Shown in pieces: positions 20,197 to 27,371 of a stretch of 64,000 bases of DNA. The notes below the pieces were generated by a model, which saw only the letters and a list, made by a program, of their open reading frames with translations, was not told where the DNA came from and did not search any database. Source of the DNA: Streptomyces sp. NBC_01750 (lineage in GTDB: Bacteria; Actinomycetota; Actinomycetes; Streptomycetales; Streptomycetaceae); contig NZ_CP109137.1 in NCBI RefSeq assembly GCF_035918095.1, positions 6,574,001 to 6,638,000 of the forward strand. Reading direction: 5' to 3'. The translations under genes were made by a program, and so were the position numbers. Each line of letters starts with the position of its first letter. The first letter of the stretch is position 1.

Positions 20197-20694
20197 GTGG
20201 AGAAGCAGGAAGGGCGCGACGCGGCTGCGGTGCGGCTCGACGACCCGTGGTACGACGCGCTGGCCTCCGGCTGGGGTGAACTGGACGGCACGGGCGCCCT
20301 CGCACCCGTCGTGCCGGACCCGCCCACGGACCGGGAGAACGCCGGACCCGGCGCGGCCGACATCTACGTGGAAGTGCAGCGCAGCGCCGCCTTCCAGGAG
20401 GTGCGCAGCCGCTACCGGAGGTTCGTCGGCCCCGCCGTTCTCGTCTTCCTCGTCTGGTACTTGGCGTACGTCGTCGCGGCGACCACGGCTCCCGGACTGA
20501 TGGCCAGGCCGGTGGCGGGAGCGGTGAATGTGGCGATGGTCGCGGGCCTCGGACAGTTCCTCACCACCTTCCTGCTGACCTGGGCGTACGCACGCCACGC
20601 CCGGCTGCGACGGGACCGCGCCGCCCTGGATCTGCGCTGGACCGTGTTCGATCAGACGAGGGCACAGGAGACGGCGCGGGGTGCCGGGCGTTGA
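20197..20694 (+). CDS. DUF485 family membrane protein
   Basis: A 165-residue protein starting at the GTG at 20197 (AAGGAGAG upstream). The N-terminal 65 residues are charged and cytoplasmic. A DUF485 domain follows, with FQEVRSRYRRFVGPAVLVFL, a second membrane segment at about 105-130 (MVAGLGQFLTTFLLTWAYA), and a C-terminal basic helix. DUF485 genes regularly precede acetate-type sodium/solute symporters, and this one does too: its stop TGA overlaps the TTG start of the symporter. It is probably a small accessory of the transporter. Confidence 0.88.
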   Translation: MEKQEGRDAAAVRLDDPWYDALASGWGELDGTGALAPVVPDPPTDRENAGPGAADIYVEVQRSAAFQEVRSRYRRFVGPAVLVFLVWYLAYVVAATTAPGLMARPVAGAVNVAMVAGLGQFLTTFLLTWAYARHARLRRDRAALDLRWTVFDQTRAQETARGAGR

Positions 20695-22283
20695 GCGGCG
20701 ACCACCAGACCCTGGCGCTGCTGCTTTTCAGCGCGTTCATCGCGGTCACTCTCGGCATCACCAGCTGGGTGAGCCACAACAGGCATGGCTCGGCGGAGGA
20801 GTTCTACGCCGGCGGGCGGCTCTTCTCCCCCATGGAGAACGGGTTCGCCATCGCAGGCGACTACATGTCCGCCGCCTCCTTCCTCGGAATCTCCGGCCTC
20901 ATCGCTCTCTTCGGCTACGACGGAATGCTCTACTCCGTGGGCTTCCTGGTCGCCTGGCTGGTTGTCCTGTTCCTCGTCGCCGAACTCGTACGCAACTGCG
21001 GCCGGTTCACCCTCGCCGATGTCATCGCCTCGAGGATGAGGGAGCGACCCGTTCGTATCGCCTCGGGAACTTCTTCGGTCACCGTGTCCGTTCTCTATCT
21101 GGTGGCGCAAATGGTGGGAGCCGGGAGCCTGGTCGCGCTGCTGCTCGGTGGTACGAGCGAGGCCGCGCGCTCGTGGACCGTGATCGGCGTGGGCGCCCTG
21201 ATGGTGATCTATGTGTCGTTGGGAGGGATGCGAGCCACCACCTGGATCCAGATCGTGAAGGCCGTGCTGCTGATGGCGGGCGCGATCGTGATGACGGTGC
21301 TCGTGCTGACGCGCTTCCACGGTGACTTCAACCAACTGCTCAACACCGCAGCCGAACGCAGCGGGCACGGCAAGGACTTCCTCTCGCCCGGCCTCAAGTA
21401 CGGCGGGAACTGGACCGCGCGCCTCGACTTCATCAGCCTCGGCCTGGCGCTGGTTCTGGGCACGGCCGGCCTGCCGCACATCCTTGCCCGCTTCTACACC
21501 GTGCCGACCGCGCGGGCCGCCCGCCGCTCGGTCGTCTGGTCGATCGGTCTCATCGGCAGCTTCTATCTGATGACGATCGTGCTCGGTTTCGGTGCGGCCG
21601 CGGTGGTCGGCACCGACGAGGTGCGGAAGTCGAACGCCGCGGGGAACACCGCGGTTCCGCTGCTCGCGCTGAACCTCGGCGGAGGAGCGGGATCCACCGG
21701 TGGCACGGTTCTCTTCGCAGTGGTCGCGGCCGTGGCCTTCGCGACCATCCTCGCCGTCGTCGCCGGAATTACCCTCGCTTCTTCCGCCTCCGTCGCCCAC
21801 GATCTGTACGCCTCGCTCCGCCGACGCCATGCCAGACAGCGCAGCGAGGTAGCGGTCGCCCGTCTCGCCGCGGCCGGCATCGGCGTGGCCGCCATCGCGC
21901 TCGGCCTGCTCGCCCGGGACCTGAACGTCGCGTTCCTGGTCGGCCTGGCCTTCGCGGTCGCCGCCTCCGCCAACCTGCCCGTACTGCTCTACTCGCTGTT
22001 CTGGCGGAACTTCACCACGCGCGGGGCGGTCTGGTCGGTGTACGGGGGGCTGATCCCAGCCATGCTCCTCGTGGTGCTTTCGCCGGTCGTCTCGGGCAGC
22101 CCGGAGGCGCTCTTCCCCGGCGTGGACTTCCACGTCTTCCCGCTGCAGAACCCCGGCCTGGTCTCCATCCCGCTTGGTTTCCTGGCGGGCTGGATCGGCA
22201 CCGTCACCTCGGCGGAGCCGCCGGACGCGGCCAGGCACGCCGAGACGGAGGTGCGGGCGCTGACGGGTGCGGGGGCGGCCTGA
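20691..22283 (+). CDS. Sodium/solute symporter, acetate/monocarboxylate (ActP/MctC) type
   Basis: A 530-residue membrane protein of the SSS family with about 13 transmembrane helices, importing acetate or a related short carboxylate with sodium or protons. Family marks: SAEEFYAGGRLFSPMENGFA, AGDYMSAASFLGISGLI, LVAQMVGAGSLVALLLG, and GTAGLPHILARFYTV. The start is a TTG at 20691 within a TTGA overlap with the DUF485 stop, so translation is coupled; no better start lies downstream before the conserved first helix. Neighbouring two-component systems and citrate synthases support a carboxylate substrate. Which carboxylate cannot be told. Confidence 0.9.
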   Translation: MSGDHQTLALLLFSAFIAVTLGITSWVSHNRHGSAEEFYAGGRLFSPMENGFAIAGDYMSAASFLGISGLIALFGYDGMLYSVGFLVAWLVVLFLVAELVRNCGRFTLADVIASRMRERPVRIASGTSSVTVSVLYLVAQMVGAGSLVALLLGGTSEAARSWTVIGVGALMVIYVSLGGMRATTWIQIVKAVLLMAGAIVMTVLVLTRFHGDFNQLLNTAAERSGHGKDFLSPGLKYGGNWTARLDFISLGLALVLGTAGLPHILARFYTVPTARAARRSVVWSIGLIGSFYLMTIVLGFGAAAVVGTDEVRKSNAAGNTAVPLLALNLGGGAGSTGGTVLFAVVAAVAFATILAVVAGITLASSASVAHDLYASLRRRHARQRSEVAVARLAAAGIGVAAIALGLLARDLNVAFLVGLAFAVAASANLPVLLYSLFWRNFTTRGAVWSVYGGLIPAMLLVVLSPVVSGSPEALFPGVDFHVFPLQNPGLVSIPLGFLAGWIGTVTSAEPPDAARHAETEVRALTGAGAA

Positions 22284-22334: not shown

Positions 22335-23063
22335 TCAATCGCCGGACGGCCTTGAAAATCCCCAGAGGTAGCGGTGCTCCGGACGGCCGGTCTCGCCGTA
22401 CTTGAGACTGAGCCGCACCCTGCCCGTCCGCTCCAGCAGCTTCAGATAGCGCTGCGCGGTCTGCCGGCTCACGCCCGCCCGTTCCGCGATCTCCTGAGTG
22501 GAGAGCGGCCCCTCGGCGGCCAGCAGCACCTGGCGTATCAGCTCGGCGGTGGTCGGCGAGTGGCCTTTGGGCAGGTCGGGCGGGACGGAACCGGCCGACA
22601 GTGCCCCGAACATACGGTCCACCTCCGCCTGTTCCGCCTCGCCTCCGCCCTCCAGAGTGCGGCGCAGCGCGGAGTACGCCTCCAACTTGGTGCGCAGACC
22701 GGTGAAGTTGAACGGCTTCACCAGATACTGGAGCGCGCCATGGCGCATAGCCGCCTGGACGGTGGCGACATCACGCGCCGCCGTCACCATGATCACGTCG
22801 GTATGGTGGCCGAGCCGGCGCAGCTCCCGTACGACGGCAAGACCGTTCCCGTCCGGCAGATAGTGGTCGAGGAGGATCAGATCCACCGGCCTGTCGGCGA
22901 TCCGGGCGAGCGCCTCGGCGGCCGAATGCGCCGTCGCGGAGACCCGGAAGCCCGGCACTTTGGCCACATAGGCCGCGTTGATCTCCGCGACCCGGACGTC
23001 GTCGTCCACCACCAGTACGTCGACCTGCTCCATGGCCGCCTGTTCGGCACGTTCCTCAGTCAT
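22335..23063 (-). CDS. CitB/DcuR-type response regulator
   Basis: A 242-residue response regulator of the family paired with carboxylate-sensing kinases. Receiver domain: DDD at residues 20-22, phospho-accepting Asp66 in LILLDHYLPDGNG, and Lys in YLVKPFNF. The C-terminal part (about 165-235) carries a winged helix with STQEIAERAGVSRQTAQRYL. Start is the ATG at 23063, overlapping the kinase stop by four bases (ATGA). Likely target genes are the adjacent symporter or the citrate synthase pair. It converges with the symporter gene, with 51 bases between. Confidence 0.92.
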   Translation of the reverse strand: MTEERAEQAAMEQVDVLVVDDDVRVAEINAAYVAKVPGFRVSATAHSAAEALARIADRPVDLILLDHYLPDGNGLAVVRELRRLGHHTDVIMVTAARDVATVQAAMRHGALQYLVKPFNFTGLRTKLEAYSALRRTLEGGGEAEQAEVDRMFGALSAGSVPPDLPKGHSPTTAELIRQVLLAAEGPLSTQEIAERAGVSRQTAQRYLKLLERTGRVRLSLKYGETGRPEHRYLWGFSRPSGD

Positions 23064-24703
23064 CGTGCCTCCCCGGCGGTGGCCAGCCCCGGCTCGGTCA
23101 GCGCCTCCGGGAGCACGACGGTGAATTCGGCGCCCCCGCCCGCCGCGTCGCGTATTTGCGCGCTGCCGCCCTGCCGTTCCGCGAGCCTGCGCACCATCGC
23201 CAGCCCGAGACCGCGCTTGCCGTGGACCGGGGGTTCCTTGGTGGACCAGCCCTCAGTGAAGATCAACTCTCTCCGCTCGGACGGGACTCCGAGACCGCTG
23301 TCCGTGACCCGGAGCACGGCCGTACGGCCCTCTGTACGAAGTTCGATCTCGATCCTCGGATCGTCCGAGCCGCCGGCCGCGTCCAGAGCGTTGTCCACGA
23401 GATTGCCGACGACCGTCACCAGACCGCGCGGGTCCACCAGCCGGTCCGGCAACAGTGTGCCGGGCGCGATCCGCAGCGATACGCCCCGCTCCGCCGCCAC
23501 GGTCGCCTTGCCCACCAGCAGCGCGGCGAGCAGCGGGTCGTGGATCTTCTCGGTGATCTGTTCCGCGGTGGCCCGGTGCACCCCGACCACCTCGGTGACG
23601 AACTCCACCGCGTCCTCGTGCATCTCCAGCTCGAGGAGCCCGAGCAGGGTGTGCATCCGGTTGGCGTGCTCATGGTCCTGCGCCCGCAGGGCGTCGATCA
23701 GGCCGCGGGTGGAGTCCAGCTCGCGGCCCAGCTGCTCCAGCTCGGTGCGGTCGCGCAGCGTGGCGACTGCGCCGCCGTCGTCGGTCGGCATCCGGTTGGC
23801 GATCAGCACCCGGCTGCCCCGAACGGTCAGCAGATCCTCGCCGGTGACCCGGCCCGCCAGCACATCGGTGGTGCGGCCGTCGCCGAGTACCTCGTCGAGC
23901 GGCAGCCCCATCGCTTCGTCGCCGAGGCCGAGCAGCCGCTGTGCCTCGTCGTTCATCAGCCGGATCCTGCCCGCGGCGTCGAGCGCCACGACCCCTTCCC
24001 GGATGCCGTGCAACATCGCCTCGCGCTCCGCCAGCAGCGCGGAGATATCGGAGAAGGCCAGGTCGTGGGTCTGCCGCTGGAGCCTGCGGGAGATCAGATA
24101 GGCGGCCAGGGCTCCGACTGCCAGGGCCCCACCGGCGTATGCGAGCAAGCCCGGGATCGCCGCCAGCAGCCGGGCGCGCACGCTGTCGTACTCGATGCCT
24201 ACGGAGACCGCGCCGACGATCGTGCCGTTCTCCTCGCGCAGTGGCACCTTCCCGCGGGCGGATCGGCCCAGGGTTCCGCTGTCGATCTCCATCACCTTGT
24301 TGCCCGCGAGGGCGTCACTGGGGTCGGTGGAGACGACCCGGCCGATCTCCCCGGGGGCGGTGTGGGACCAGCGCACACCGCGCCTGTCCATGATCACGAC
24401 GTACTCGGCGCCGGTCGCCTGTCGTATCCGCTCGGCCTTGGCCTGAACCGGACCATCGGCCGTCGGCCGCGAGCCGAGCAGTTCGTCGGCGACCTCCGGA
24501 GATGCGGTGGTCTCGGCGATGGCGAGCGCGCGGCGCATCGCCTGATCGTCGAGCTGAGCGCTGAGGGGCGCGAGAAAGAGGCCGGTGGCGAGCACGGTGA
24601 CACCGGCGGCGATTGCCAGCTGCATCAGCAGGACCTGCGAGAAGACCCGCTGCGGCCAGCCGAACCGCCGGCGCCGGGCGGGGGTGGTCGGTACGGGGCT
24701 CAT
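23060..24703 (-). CDS. CitA/DcuS-type sensor histidine kinase
   Basis: A 547-residue membrane kinase. It has a first transmembrane helix at about 21-45 (VLLMQLAIAAGVTVLATGLF), then an extracellular PAS-type domain (about 46-175) with RGVRWSHTAPGEIGR and GTIVGAVSVGIEYD, as in citrate/C4-dicarboxylate sensors. A second helix (about 183-205), an inner PAS domain with DAAGRIRLMNDEAQRLLG, a His box with AQDHEHANRMHTLLGLLELE, and an ATPase domain with NLVDNALDAAGG and GLGLAMVRRLAE follow. Start is the ATG at 24703; the ribosome site is weak. It forms an operon with the regulator. The ligand is probably a di- or tricarboxylate, inferred from family and neighbours. Confidence 0.92.
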   Translation of the reverse strand: MSPVPTTPARRRRFGWPQRVFSQVLLMQLAIAAGVTVLATGLFLAPLSAQLDDQAMRRALAIAETTASPEVADELLGSRPTADGPVQAKAERIRQATGAEYVVIMDRRGVRWSHTAPGEIGRVVSTDPSDALAGNKVMEIDSGTLGRSARGKVPLREENGTIVGAVSVGIEYDSVRARLLAAIPGLLAYAGGALAVGALAAYLISRRLQRQTHDLAFSDISALLAEREAMLHGIREGVVALDAAGRIRLMNDEAQRLLGLGDEAMGLPLDEVLGDGRTTDVLAGRVTGEDLLTVRGSRVLIANRMPTDDGGAVATLRDRTELEQLGRELDSTRGLIDALRAQDHEHANRMHTLLGLLELEMHEDAVEFVTEVVGVHRATAEQITEKIHDPLLAALLVGKATVAAERGVSLRIAPGTLLPDRLVDPRGLVTVVGNLVDNALDAAGGSDDPRIEIELRTEGRTAVLRVTDSGLGVPSERRELIFTEGWSTKEPPVHGKRGLGLAMVRRLAERQGGSAQIRDAAGGGAEFTVVLPEALTEPGLATAGEAR

Positions 24704-24884: not shown

Positions 24885-26120
24885 TCATGGCAACGGCCTG
24901 GGCGGGCGGGGACCGTTGTAGTGCCCGCTCGGCCGCATCCGCAGCGGGCGCTCCTCGTACTCCTCCAGTGCATGCGCGATCCAGCCGGCCGTCCGCGCCA
25001 CCGCGAAGACCGTCTCGCCCGCCTCGGCCGGCATTCCGGAAGCCACCGACAGCACCGCGAGCGCCAGGTCGACATTGGCGTGCAGCTCCACATGGCGGGC
25101 AGTCGTGGCCTCCACCTCACGCGCCGCCTCGAGAGCCGGACGGGCGCCGGGAAGCTCCTCGAGCGCGCCGAACAGCGCCACCGCACGCGGGTCCCGCCCC
25201 GGGTAGAGCCGGTGGCCGAGCCCCGGCACCCGCCGCCCCGCCCGCAGATGGTCCGCCACGACGGCCGCCGCGCTGCCCCGCTCCAGCACCTCGGCGAGCA
25301 TCCGGTGCGCGAGCCCGCTCGCGGCTCCGTGCAGCGGACCCTCCAGAGCGCCGAGTCCCGCGGACACCACGGCATACGGATGGGCGCGCGCCGAGGCCGC
25401 GACCCGTACGGCCAGCGTCGATGCGGCCAGATCGTGGTCGATCAGCAGGGAGAGCGCCATGTCCAGTACCCGAAGGGATGGTTCGTCCGGCTGTGCGGGA
25501 GTCAGCCGCGTCCAGAGCCGCTGGGCGAGCCGGGCCTCGCCGCGGTGCGGCCGGCCTGCCGCGGGTAGGGCGTCGACCAGGATGGGAATCAGGGTGCGGG
25601 CGCTGCCCAGCACCGCCTCCCGGTCGAGGTCGAAACGGAGCGGATCGGCGACGGCCGCGGCGATCGCGGCCACCCGCAGCCGGTCCGTCGAGCCGCTGTG
25701 CGCGGGCAGCGCATCGACCGCGCGGCGAGCGGCGGCCAGCGGCTCGGCGGGGGCGGTGAACCGGACGCCCGCGTGCATGGTGCCGGTCCACAGCCAGTCG
25801 GCGATCTCCTCGTAGCCGTAATGGCGGGCGAGTTCGGTCGCGTCCACACCGCGGAAGTAGTAGCGGTCCTTGTCGATGAGCGTGATGCCGGTGCGGATCC
25901 GCTGGGTGACATCTCTCCCCGCGGAGGGCTCTCGGCGGCCCTTGCGGACGAGCGCGTCGACCTCTTTCGCGTCGAAGGTGCTGCCGCGCCCGGCGGGATC
26001 GCGTCGGCTGGAGAGCTGTCCGCGGCTGACATACGCGTACACCGTCTCCGGCTTCACGCCCAGCCGCTCGGCTGCTTCCCGGGTGGTCAGCCGCTCTCCG
26101 TCCGCTTCCTGGTCCGTCAT
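24885..26120 (-). CDS. Citrate synthase-like protein with N-terminal helix-turn-helix
   Basis: A 411-residue fusion. Residues about 10-60 form an excisionase/MerR-type DNA-binding domain (LTTREAAERLGVKPETVYAY, then STFDAKEVDALVRK). Residues about 70-411 are a citrate synthase fold. The catalytic triad is present: His264 in GPLHGAAS, His303 in GLGHRLYPG, Asp351 in NVDLALAVL, plus WIAHALEEYEERPLRMRPSG for substrate binding. Whether it is an enzyme, a metabolite-sensing regulator or both is unknown. Start is the ATG at 26120. It is divergent from a second citrate synthase-family gene across an AT-rich perfect palindrome, which is the likely site for its DNA-binding domain. Confidence 0.88.
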   Translation of the reverse strand: MTDQEADGERLTTREAAERLGVKPETVYAYVSRGQLSSRRDPAGRGSTFDAKEVDALVRKGRREPSAGRDVTQRIRTGITLIDKDRYYFRGVDATELARHYGYEEIADWLWTGTMHAGVRFTAPAEPLAAARRAVDALPAHSGSTDRLRVAAIAAAVADPLRFDLDREAVLGSARTLIPILVDALPAAGRPHRGEARLAQRLWTRLTPAQPDEPSLRVLDMALSLLIDHDLAASTLAVRVAASARAHPYAVVSAGLGALEGPLHGAASGLAHRMLAEVLERGSAAAVVADHLRAGRRVPGLGHRLYPGRDPRAVALFGALEELPGARPALEAAREVEATTARHVELHANVDLALAVLSVASGMPAEAGETVFAVARTAGWIAHALEEYEERPLRMRPSGHYNGPRPPRPLP

Positions 26121-26135
26121 GAGGTCACCGTACAC

Positions 26136-26154
26136 ATATTGATCTAATCAATAT
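26136..26154. promoter_or_regulatory. AT-rich palindrome between the two citrate synthase genes
   Basis: ATATTGAT, CTA, ATCAATAT: a perfect 8-bp inverted repeat. It sits 15 bases from the start of the helix-turn-helix citrate synthase gene (-). A possible -35 (TTGACA at 26154-26159) for the plus-strand gene touches its right edge. A second inverted repeat, TTGAC/GTCAA, lies at about 26154-26172. Such AT-rich sequence is rare in this GC-rich DNA. Confidence 0.75.
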
Positions 26155-26207
26155 TGACAGTGATTGAGTCAAGCATGGACAGTCGAATCAAGTTCAGGGA
26201 GGACACC

Positions 26208-27371
26208 ATGCAGAGCACCGGGACCACCACACCCCTCGACATACCGCGCGGACTCGCGGGCGTCGTCGTCACCGACACCGCGCTCGGGGACGTCAGGGGG
26301 CGCGAGGGCTTCTATCACTACCGTCAGTACTCGGCCGTCGAGCTCGCGGAGAGCCGCGGCTTCGAGGACGTCTGGCACCTGATGTTCCACGGCGAACTGC
26401 CGGACGCCGCGCAGCGGACCGAATTCCTGGCGCGCACCGCGTTGCTGCGTCATCTGCCCGGCGACGTACGCGCTGCGCTGCCCGCCATCGCCCGCTCATG
26501 CGCCCTGTCAGGCCCGCTGGCCGGACTGCGTACCGCGCTCTCCCTGCTGGGGGCGTCCATGGGTATGCGTCCGGTGTACGACCTCGACGCCGGGCGCCGC
26601 AAGGCGGACGCGCTCGCTGTCTGCGCGGCGGTTCCAACACTTCTGACGGCGCTGCACCGGCTGGGTCAGGGGCTCGATCCGGTCGAGCCGCGCGACGACC
26701 TGCCGTACGCCGCCAACTACCTCTACATGCTGACCGGTTCGGAGCCGGAACCCGCCCGCGCCCGGGCGATCGAGCAGTACCTCGTCTCCACGATCGACCA
26801 TGGCTTCAATGCGTCCACGTTCACTGCCCGGGTGATCACCTCCACCGGAGCCGACGTCGCGGCCTGCCTGGTCGGCGCGATCGGCGCACTCTCGGGCCCG
26901 CTGCACGGCGGCGCTCCCAGCCGCGCCCTCGACACGCTGGATGCGATCGGCACTGAGGACCGCATCGACTCCTGGATCAGGGAACGGGTCCTGGCGGGGG
27001 AGCGGATCATGGGCTTCGGGCATCCCGTGTACCGCACCGAGGACCCACGCTCGCGCATGCTGCGCCAGATCGCCGAGAGCTTCGGCGGACCGCTGGTGGA
27101 GTTCGCGGTCCAGGTGGAGGCACACGTCGAGGCGATCCTCGCGGAGCTGAAGCCGGGGCGTGAGCTGCACACCAATGTGGAGTTCTATGCGGGCGTCGTC
27201 ATGGAGCAGTGCGGTCTGCCGCGCGAGATGTTCACCCCGACGTTCTGCGCTGCGAGGGTGGTCGGCTGGAGCGCCAACATTCTGGAGCAGGCGGAGGACT
27301 CCAAGATCATCCGCCCGGCGGCGCGGTATGTGGGACCGCCGCCGCCTCAGCCGCTGCCGGTGGTGTCCTGA
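26208..27371 (+). CDS. Citrate synthase/2-methylcitrate synthase family protein
   Basis: A 387-residue enzyme of the family condensing acetyl-CoA or propionyl-CoA with oxaloacetate. Start is the ATG at 26208 after GGGAGGA; upstream in-frame ATGs lie in the promoter. Motifs: GFNASTFTARV, His233 in GPLHGGAPSRA, His272 in MGFGHPVYRTEDPR, and ARVVGWSANILEQAED. The third catalytic residue, normally Asp in NVDFY, is Glu325 (NVEFYAG). This might alter or lower activity. It is divergent from the helix-turn-helix paralogue and likely controlled through the shared palindrome. It could be a citrate, methylcitrate or unrelated acyl-CoA condensing enzyme. Confidence 0.88.
   Translation: MQSTGTTTPLDIPRGLAGVVVTDTALGDVRGREGFYHYRQYSAVELAESRGFEDVWHLMFHGELPDAAQRTEFLARTALLRHLPGDVRAALPAIARSCALSGPLAGLRTALSLLGASMGMRPVYDLDAGRRKADALAVCAAVPTLLTALHRLGQGLDPVEPRDDLPYAANYLYMLTGSEPEPARARAIEQYLVSTIDHGFNASTFTARVITSTGADVAACLVGAIGALSGPLHGGAPSRALDTLDAIGTEDRIDSWIRERVLAGERIMGFGHPVYRTEDPRSRMLRQIAESFGGPLVEFAVQVEAHVEAILAELKPGRELHTNVEFYAGVVMEQCGLPREMFTPTFCAARVVGWSANILEQAEDSKIIRPAARYVGPPPPQPLPVVS

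Follow-up and report, generated by a model that had tools for sequence, protein, structure and literature searches.

A winged helix-turn-helix fused to a citrate synthase domain: a candidate transcription factor family with a conserved operator in Actinomycetota and Pseudomonadota

We identified a gene of Streptomyces sp. NBC_01750 that codes for a winged helix-turn-helix (HTH) fused to a citrate synthase (CS) domain, and propose, with a probability of roughly 0.8, that the protein (designated HTH-CS) is a local, autoregulating one-component transcription factor with a CS-fold sensor. Comparison of related loci establishes the domain make-up, the single clade formed by the sampled proteins, the co-occurrence of the gene with a predicted operator, and the presence of that operator at both genes of the HTH-CS/CS pair where these have become separated. 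A wider reading, to which we give somewhat better than even chances, is that HTH-CS represents an ancient, cross-phylum transcription factor family in which the open-to-closed movement of CS would be the switch for oxaloacetate or other 2-oxo acids (possibly also acyl-CoA) and would drive neighbouring carbon-acid genes, the protein being catalytically dead in several lineages. The starting point was a stretch of 64,000 nucleotides (contig NZ_CP109137.1, positions 6,574,001 to 6,638,000), hereafter called the window.

The HTH-CS gene (24885-26120, minus strand) is an open reading frame of 411 amino acids, which probably begins at the ATG at 26120; the frame can also be read, uninterrupted, from a GTG at 26135. 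Pfam assigned HTH_17 to residues 11-61 (33.9 bits, cut-off 27), which are coded by 25938-26090 on the minus strand and include the recognition-helix signature YxYVSRG, and MerR to residues 12-45 (28.6 bits, cut-off 28.2). TIGR01764 also scored above its cut-off (30.3 versus 28.8 bits). The Citrate_synt domain (PF00285) occupied residues 75-397 (24930-25898, minus strand) and profile positions 8-356/357 with 211 bits against a cut-off of 27, whereas none of the NCBIfam CS models listed for HTH-CS attained its cut-off (top score 159.7 versus 332). An AlphaFold2 model based on 62 sequences had a mean pLDDT of 91.4, with ten-residue means of 89 to 95 over residues 11-60, where the HTH was modelled with high confidence as helix-helix-wing-helix. 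Values fell below 50 at residues 63-72, suggesting two folded domains joined by a loose linker. These data bear out the preliminary description, which had placed an HTH ahead of a complete CS domain and noted that His264, His303 and Asp351 are kept; the alignment showed that the substrate-binding Arg residues are present too. The second, divergent citrate synthase gene that it reported is also there (26208-27371, plus strand). The perfect palindrome that it saw between the two genes is present, but belongs to a bigger conserved operator, GTCAATATTGATTAGATCAAT (26138-26158, minus strand), which is the predicted HTH-CS binding site on the basis of the upstream alignment, genome scans and co-occurrence.

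The fusion is old, as judged from the grouping of the CS domains in the tree described below. Loss of the N-terminal domain from orthologues, which the preliminary description had considered damaging to its proposal, was not what we observed, as HTH_17 was listed for each of the best 120 homologues of HTH-CS, for 113 of the best 120 matches to an Acidimicrobiia query, and for 97 of the best 120 matches to a distant paralogue, including proteins of Duganella and of a deltaproteobacterial MAG. A protein search found HTH-CS in 21 of 37 genomes of the same genus; in genome G019 the match was split in two, yet a frame of 477 codons is open and contains the HTH. In a class sample of 296 genomes, 49 matched a non-Streptomyces query at an E value of 1e-45 or better, and these represented 13 of 114 genera. 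Named carriers include Actinomadura, Amycolatopsis, Actinoplanes, Kitasatospora and Acidimicrobiia MAGs. In a FastTree phylogeny of the CS domain only, built on 95 hand-picked sequences, all 65 sampled HTH-CS proteins from Actinomycetota and Pseudomonadota formed one clade with modest support (0.866), and the 30 other CS sequences all fell outside it. Multiple alignment of 142 actinobacterial HTH-CS proteins (at least 330 residues long) showed that Y, Y and SRG of the YxYVSRG signature are invariant, and that the HTH is less variable than the CS domain (mean column entropy 1.06 versus 1.34 bits). A stray or recent fusion is ruled out by the HTH_17 listings and the CS-domain tree.

An alignment of the regions upstream of Streptomyces HTH-CS genes revealed the conserved blocks TTGATT, CGACTGTCCATGCTTGACT and CTGTCAATATTGATTnAATCAAT, followed by TACGGT near the start codon. 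The third block, CTGTCAATATTGATTnAATCAAT, was seen again in further families and in Acidimicrobiia, where its spacing depends on the clade and some variants occur. The general form of the operator may be written as GTCAAYNTTGAT-N(4 to 8)-TCAAY, the distance between half-sites being clade-dependent (4 or 5 versus 8). This pattern occurred once in the window and in none of 100 shuffles, and the Streptomyces form, TGTCAATATTGATTNNATCAAT, had a single occurrence in the 8.98 Mb genome even when up to three mismatches were allowed; a chance palindrome is excluded by these two results. We then counted sites in 143 unique actinobacterial loci, which remained after removal of duplicates (the search for related loci covered the best 80 of 483), and which are mostly from Streptomyces, related by descent and not independent. 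The core TCAAYRTTGA was found within 330 bp upstream of HTH-CS in 120 of them, and the strong full pattern GTCAAYNTTGAT-N4..8-TCAAY in 100. The density of the core was 127 matches in 47 kb of upstream sequence versus 2 in the remaining 940 kb of these loci. The exact 10-base core was absent from 24 of 162 loci, and most of those shown had variants with the same half-sites. A shortened variant was seen in family f21, genus g41, and a degenerate site in genome G031.

Within the genus, the operator follows the gene. The Streptomyces form (no more than one mismatch) was detected in 19 of 21 HTH-CS genomes and in 1 of 16 non-carriers (Fisher 2e-7); the sole positive non-carrier, G021, had a one-mismatch hit, and no HTH-CS was found in its genome. 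The general form gave a similar picture in the genus part of the class sample (15/17 carriers versus 0/11, Fisher 4e-6), the two counts sharing genomes G000 and G013. No Streptomyces form was found in 24 genomes of other genera, at least two of which (G058 and G039) carry HTH-CS with a different operator spacing. The general form was less specific in the class sample as a whole than in the genus, occurring in 36 of 49 HTH-CS genomes and in 45 of 247 others, but many of these 45 are small genomes in which a reversed control pattern also matches, and one, G301, does hold an HTH-CS that was missed by the protein search. An operator search of the class sample returned 30 loci, 19 of them with HTH-CS; the strong form was present in 15 of these 19 and in none of the 11 loci lacking the gene. 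Operator-like sites were also noted in three stretches in which no HTH-CS was read, L260 (G212), L261 (G326) and L263 (G181). All three genomes have HTH-CS elsewhere, and the lone sites could be extra targets or chance occurrences.

Rearranged loci provide additional examples of the association between operator and gene pair. An inversion of the CS gene in G032 has left both genes pointing in the same direction, and each has its own operator copy, that of HTH-CS with one mismatch. In G258 the CS gene lies 20 kb away from HTH-CS, and a copy of the operator is present at both genes. G151 kept the operator, and no CS gene was found in the 12 kb read. G013 and G162 kept HTH-CS, while both the neighbouring CS gene and the operator are missing; together with the degenerate site of G031, this suggests that the operator in Streptomyces may serve the partner gene more than autoregulation.

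For Pseudomonadota, a tblastn search with a Duganella protein returned 243 plasmid records, and 19 loci were hand-picked for genus spread from the 40 listed. The unwidened core TCAAYRTTGA was found upstream of HTH-CS in 6 of the 19 loci, and a core widened by one base, TCAAYNTTGA, in 16 of the 19 versus 0.02 expected from shuffled upstream stretches; only the 6/19 figure is a blind test, because the pattern was relaxed at position 6 and in its spacing once these loci had been seen. Outside the upstream stretches, 148 kb contained one TCAAYNTTGA match per strand reading, and the match of the plus reading, at L218, is the HTH-CS gene cluster's own operator. At L210 a variant of the operator was found, and at L217 and L218 HTH-CS follows other genes in a cluster on the same strand. 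A strong site precedes the first gene of the cluster at L218, and the only strong site of the L217 replicon lies near the origin of the record, beside a divergent D-glycerate dehydrogenase gene. We scanned 18 of the 19 replicons (15.93 Mb, that of L219 being left out) with the strong pattern, which was written with the Pseudomonadota loci in view, so that its hits are partly fitted, while the absence of others is not: 17 replicons contained it, and all 18 distinct sites were beside HTH-CS or its cluster. In Comamonas antarctica, a strong site led to a second HTH-CS, annotated as citrate synthase, with a 2-hydroxyacid dehydrogenase operon running divergently; the HTH of this protein scored below the Pfam cut-off (19.6 versus 27 bits, E value 0.001). 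The second site in Chelatococcus belongs to a repeat of the locus: in the plasmid of Chelatococcus sp. CO-6, the HTH-CS/CS locus and its operator occur twice (L211 and L288), near both ends of the circular record, which reflects either a duplication or an assembly artefact. At L202 (3893-3977), the annotated start of ATU_RS25370 precedes the operator, which thus falls inside the annotated frame; the start codon is probably misplaced.

The type of neighbour differs between the proteobacterial loci, but the operator does not. A citrate synthase or methylcitrate synthase gene neighbours HTH-CS in Agrobacterium, Ensifer, Pararhizobium and Chelatococcus, a CoA transferase gene in two Azospirillum and in Comamonas antarctica (with a degenerate operator in the latter), and in Thioclava and Caballeronia an MFS transporter gene together with one for a 2-hydroxyacid dehydrogenase. 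The neighbours in Comamonas endophytica and a Comamonadaceae strain are a 2-hydroxyacid dehydrogenase, an FAH hydrolase, an SDR and a tricarboxylate transporter protein, and Pseudoroseomonas has a DUF2332 gene. The recurrence of 2-hydroxyacid dehydrogenases suggests a 2-oxo acid ligand. A position beside genes other than CS, seen in several of these Pseudomonadota, is what one would expect of an ordinary local regulator.

The geometry of the intergenic region differs on its two sides. TACGGT (26127-26132, minus strand), six bases before the start codon, is the likely -10 element of a leaderless HTH-CS transcript. On the plus strand, TTGACA (26154-26159), which overlaps the operator, may be the -35 element of the divergent gene, and GACAGT (26178-26183; conserved on the other strand as GACTGTC) its -10 element. 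A consensus promoter scan of 26100-26230 found nothing, so these roles are assigned from conservation. All four elements were present in 61 of the 143 loci, and in 57 of these the start of the operator was 18 nt from GACTGTC, whereas the distance from the operator to the HTH-CS TACGGT ranged from 5 to 42 nt, with 6-8 nt from TACGGT to the start codon. The operator thus appears to be phased with the divergent side and loosely set before its own leaderless-type start. From the end of the operator to the first possible in-frame HTH-CS start codon, the median was 18 nt in Actinomycetota and 12 nt in Pseudomonadota, and the distance was 0 in four of 15 proteobacterial loci. Classical MerR operators lie within a long promoter spacer of 19-20 bp, fixed relative to the -10 element of the regulated gene. 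The proximity of the operator to the HTH-CS start makes it likely that HTH-CS occludes its own promoter.

These features can be combined into a model. The MerR/excisionase-like HTH would bind GTCAAYNTTGAT-N4..8-TCAAY at the promoters of its own gene and of the divergent gene. The CS fold forms dimers in citrate synthases, and in HTH-CS it may pair the DNA-binding domains in the same way. Citrate synthase undergoes a large closing movement upon oxaloacetate binding, a natural switch; in HTH-CS, oxaloacetate or a similar 2-oxo acid, perhaps in combination with an acyl-CoA, could act as a CS-type ligand that closes the CS domains and alters DNA binding. At its own start region HTH-CS would most likely act as a repressor, and the divergent gene might be repressed or activated depending on the ligand. 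On present evidence, the ligand is probably a 2-oxo acid such as oxaloacetate.

An alternative that we regard as possible but doubtful is that HTH-CS is a bifunctional enzyme-regulator of the PutA type, that is, an active citrate or methylcitrate synthase which senses its own substrates during turnover. In favour of this, the CS domain is complete, and 130 of 142 HTH-CS proteins from Actinomycetota and 17 of 19 from Pseudomonadota retain all seven active-site residues inspected. However, active-site residues were partly lost in the other 12 actinobacterial sequences, one of which is merely a cut-off sequence end. The second catalytic His was replaced in six proteins (by E, E, A, M, I and Q) in at least three separate lineages, one of the proteins being the Amycolatopsis-type L110, and all six retained the operator, the HTH and the substrate-binding Arg. 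Four other HTH-CS proteins have Glu at the position of the catalytic Asp, and the Thioclava and Caballeronia proteins (L206 and L207) have Gln at the position of E. coli H229. In contrast, the substrate Arg is present at two positions in all 142 proteins and at a third in 141, with one gap. This persistence of ligand-binding residues while catalytic ones disappear fits the sensor reading. Additionally, a second, distant HTH-CS paralogue (L037, G003:C22, 6225-7517, minus strand; 35% identical) has lost two active-site His residues (replaced by N and P) and kept the Arg residues and the HTH; no operator of the HTH-CS kind was detected in the stretch read. A better-matching citrate synthase, according to the NCBIfam comparison, is encoded next door in the window, and a CS gene adjoins HTH-CS in most actinobacterial loci. 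As a lead only, in the accessible part of a Caulobacter study CitB (CCNA_03757) complemented E. coli gltA, whereas CitC (CCNA_03758), next in numbering, did not (PMC7083601). Because of the His losses and the non-CS neighbours in several Pseudomonadota, we favour a transcription factor with a CS-fold sensor over a moonlighting enzyme. Regarding the enzyme-regulator suggested in the preliminary description, the regulatory half is strongly supported by an HTH conserved over phyla and an operator that travels with it; the enzyme half, like the sensing of oxaloacetate or acetyl-CoA, is hypothetical.

The divergent gene (26208-27371, plus strand), the predicted target, had no listed Pfam domain besides citrate synthase, and the pair accounts for two of four genes above the CS cut-off in the genome. 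Its product has Glu at the catalytic Asp position, where most citrate synthases have Asp. Across the loci, Glu was seen in 126 of 134 aligned non-HTH CS sequences and Asp in 138 of 142 HTH-CS proteins. Active sites of citrate synthases are built from two subunits, and this difference in residue might be taken to mean that HTH-CS forms mixed dimers with the divergent CS and tethers or tunes that enzyme, DNA binding being secondary. We consider this improbable. Glu is likewise aligned at the catalytic Asp position in B. subtilis CS 1 (2c6x), and the operator or a variant of it is kept where no CS neighbour was found in the stretch read, as in Actinomadura-type loci, Thioclava, Caballeronia, Comamonas and Azospirillum. 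The surroundings of the pair suggest an organic acid setting: a response regulator resembling DcuR/DpiA, which scored below the NCBIfam cut-offs and adjoins a sensor kinase frame (22335-24700, minus strand), lies 1.8 kb away, and a monocarboxylic acid transporter gene (20691-22283, plus strand; NCBIfam MctC, above cut-off) is also close by.

By gene context (the SCO5829/5828 two-component system) and by the wording 'citrate synthase-like', the pair corresponds to SCO5831/SCO5832 of S. coelicolor, which share a common intergenic region. The available part of PMC12323332 describes these genes as citA3/citA4, putative citrate synthases, with no mention there of an HTH, such an operator or a regulatory role. 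In the same text, MtrA bound a probe of the intergenic region with the predicted site TTGACTTAACTGTCCA, indicating that other regulators act at this region. It is nevertheless very improbable that the intergenic site is that of MtrA, GlnR or the nearby DcuR-like response regulator, with the HTH used otherwise, for example in protein contact, since in the genus the site occurs at one locus in most HTH-CS carriers and in only 1/16 (0/11) non-carriers, reappears next to HTH-CS in Pseudomonadota, where the neighbours differ and some loci have no CS neighbour, and by eye is unlike the MtrA consensus GTAACC-N5-GTAACC quoted in the available part of PMC12323332. We rejected a site serving another regulator only, in view of this gene-following in the genus and the recurrence in Pseudomonadota replicons. 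Excerpts of other reports describe SCO5831 as citrate synthase-like and as more abundant at ample phosphate (PMC9739823, PMC8981147), and its value was lowered in RNA-Seq data tabulated for SCO3201 over-expression (PMC7324645). We found no description of a DNA-binding citrate synthase family in the open-licence literature searched, and HTH-CS is apparently a widespread and so far undescribed regulator family. Citrate synthase is the gatekeeper of TCA cycle entry. If our reading is correct, levels of oxaloacetate or other 2-oxo acids would be linked directly to gene expression through the enzyme's own fold, which would help to explain the 'spare' citrate synthase gene pair in many bacteria and would correct the annotation of proteins that now carry the label 'citrate synthase family protein' or plain 'citrate synthase'. 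The conserved operator could serve for target prediction, and HTH-CS may offer a natural biosensor.

Several known regulators combine a metabolic enzyme fold with a DNA-binding domain to make a sensor, including MocR/GabR, ROK repressors, BirA and PutA. HTH-CS resembles them in the fusion of an enzyme fold to a DNA-binding domain, and to our knowledge none of them is built on the citrate synthase fold. Caulobacter CitA is a moonlighting citrate synthase, 65% identical to E. coli GltA, whose regulatory function does not depend on catalysis and targets the CtrA cell-cycle pathway; the accessible part of that report describes no DNA-binding fusion or operator for CitA, which sets it apart from HTH-CS (PMC7083601). 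The HTH of HTH-CS belongs to the same domain family as the BldC/MerR-like winged HTH (PF12728, PF00376). It matched 6amk and 6ama ('Putative DNA-binding protein', which we take to be BldC) weakly, with an E value of about 0.5, and the NCBIfam BldC model matched HTH-CS below its cut-off. Unlike BldC, which according to the available part of PMC5859096 is without an effector-binding domain, HTH-CS carries a complete CS domain, and its operator is of another, dyad-rich type.
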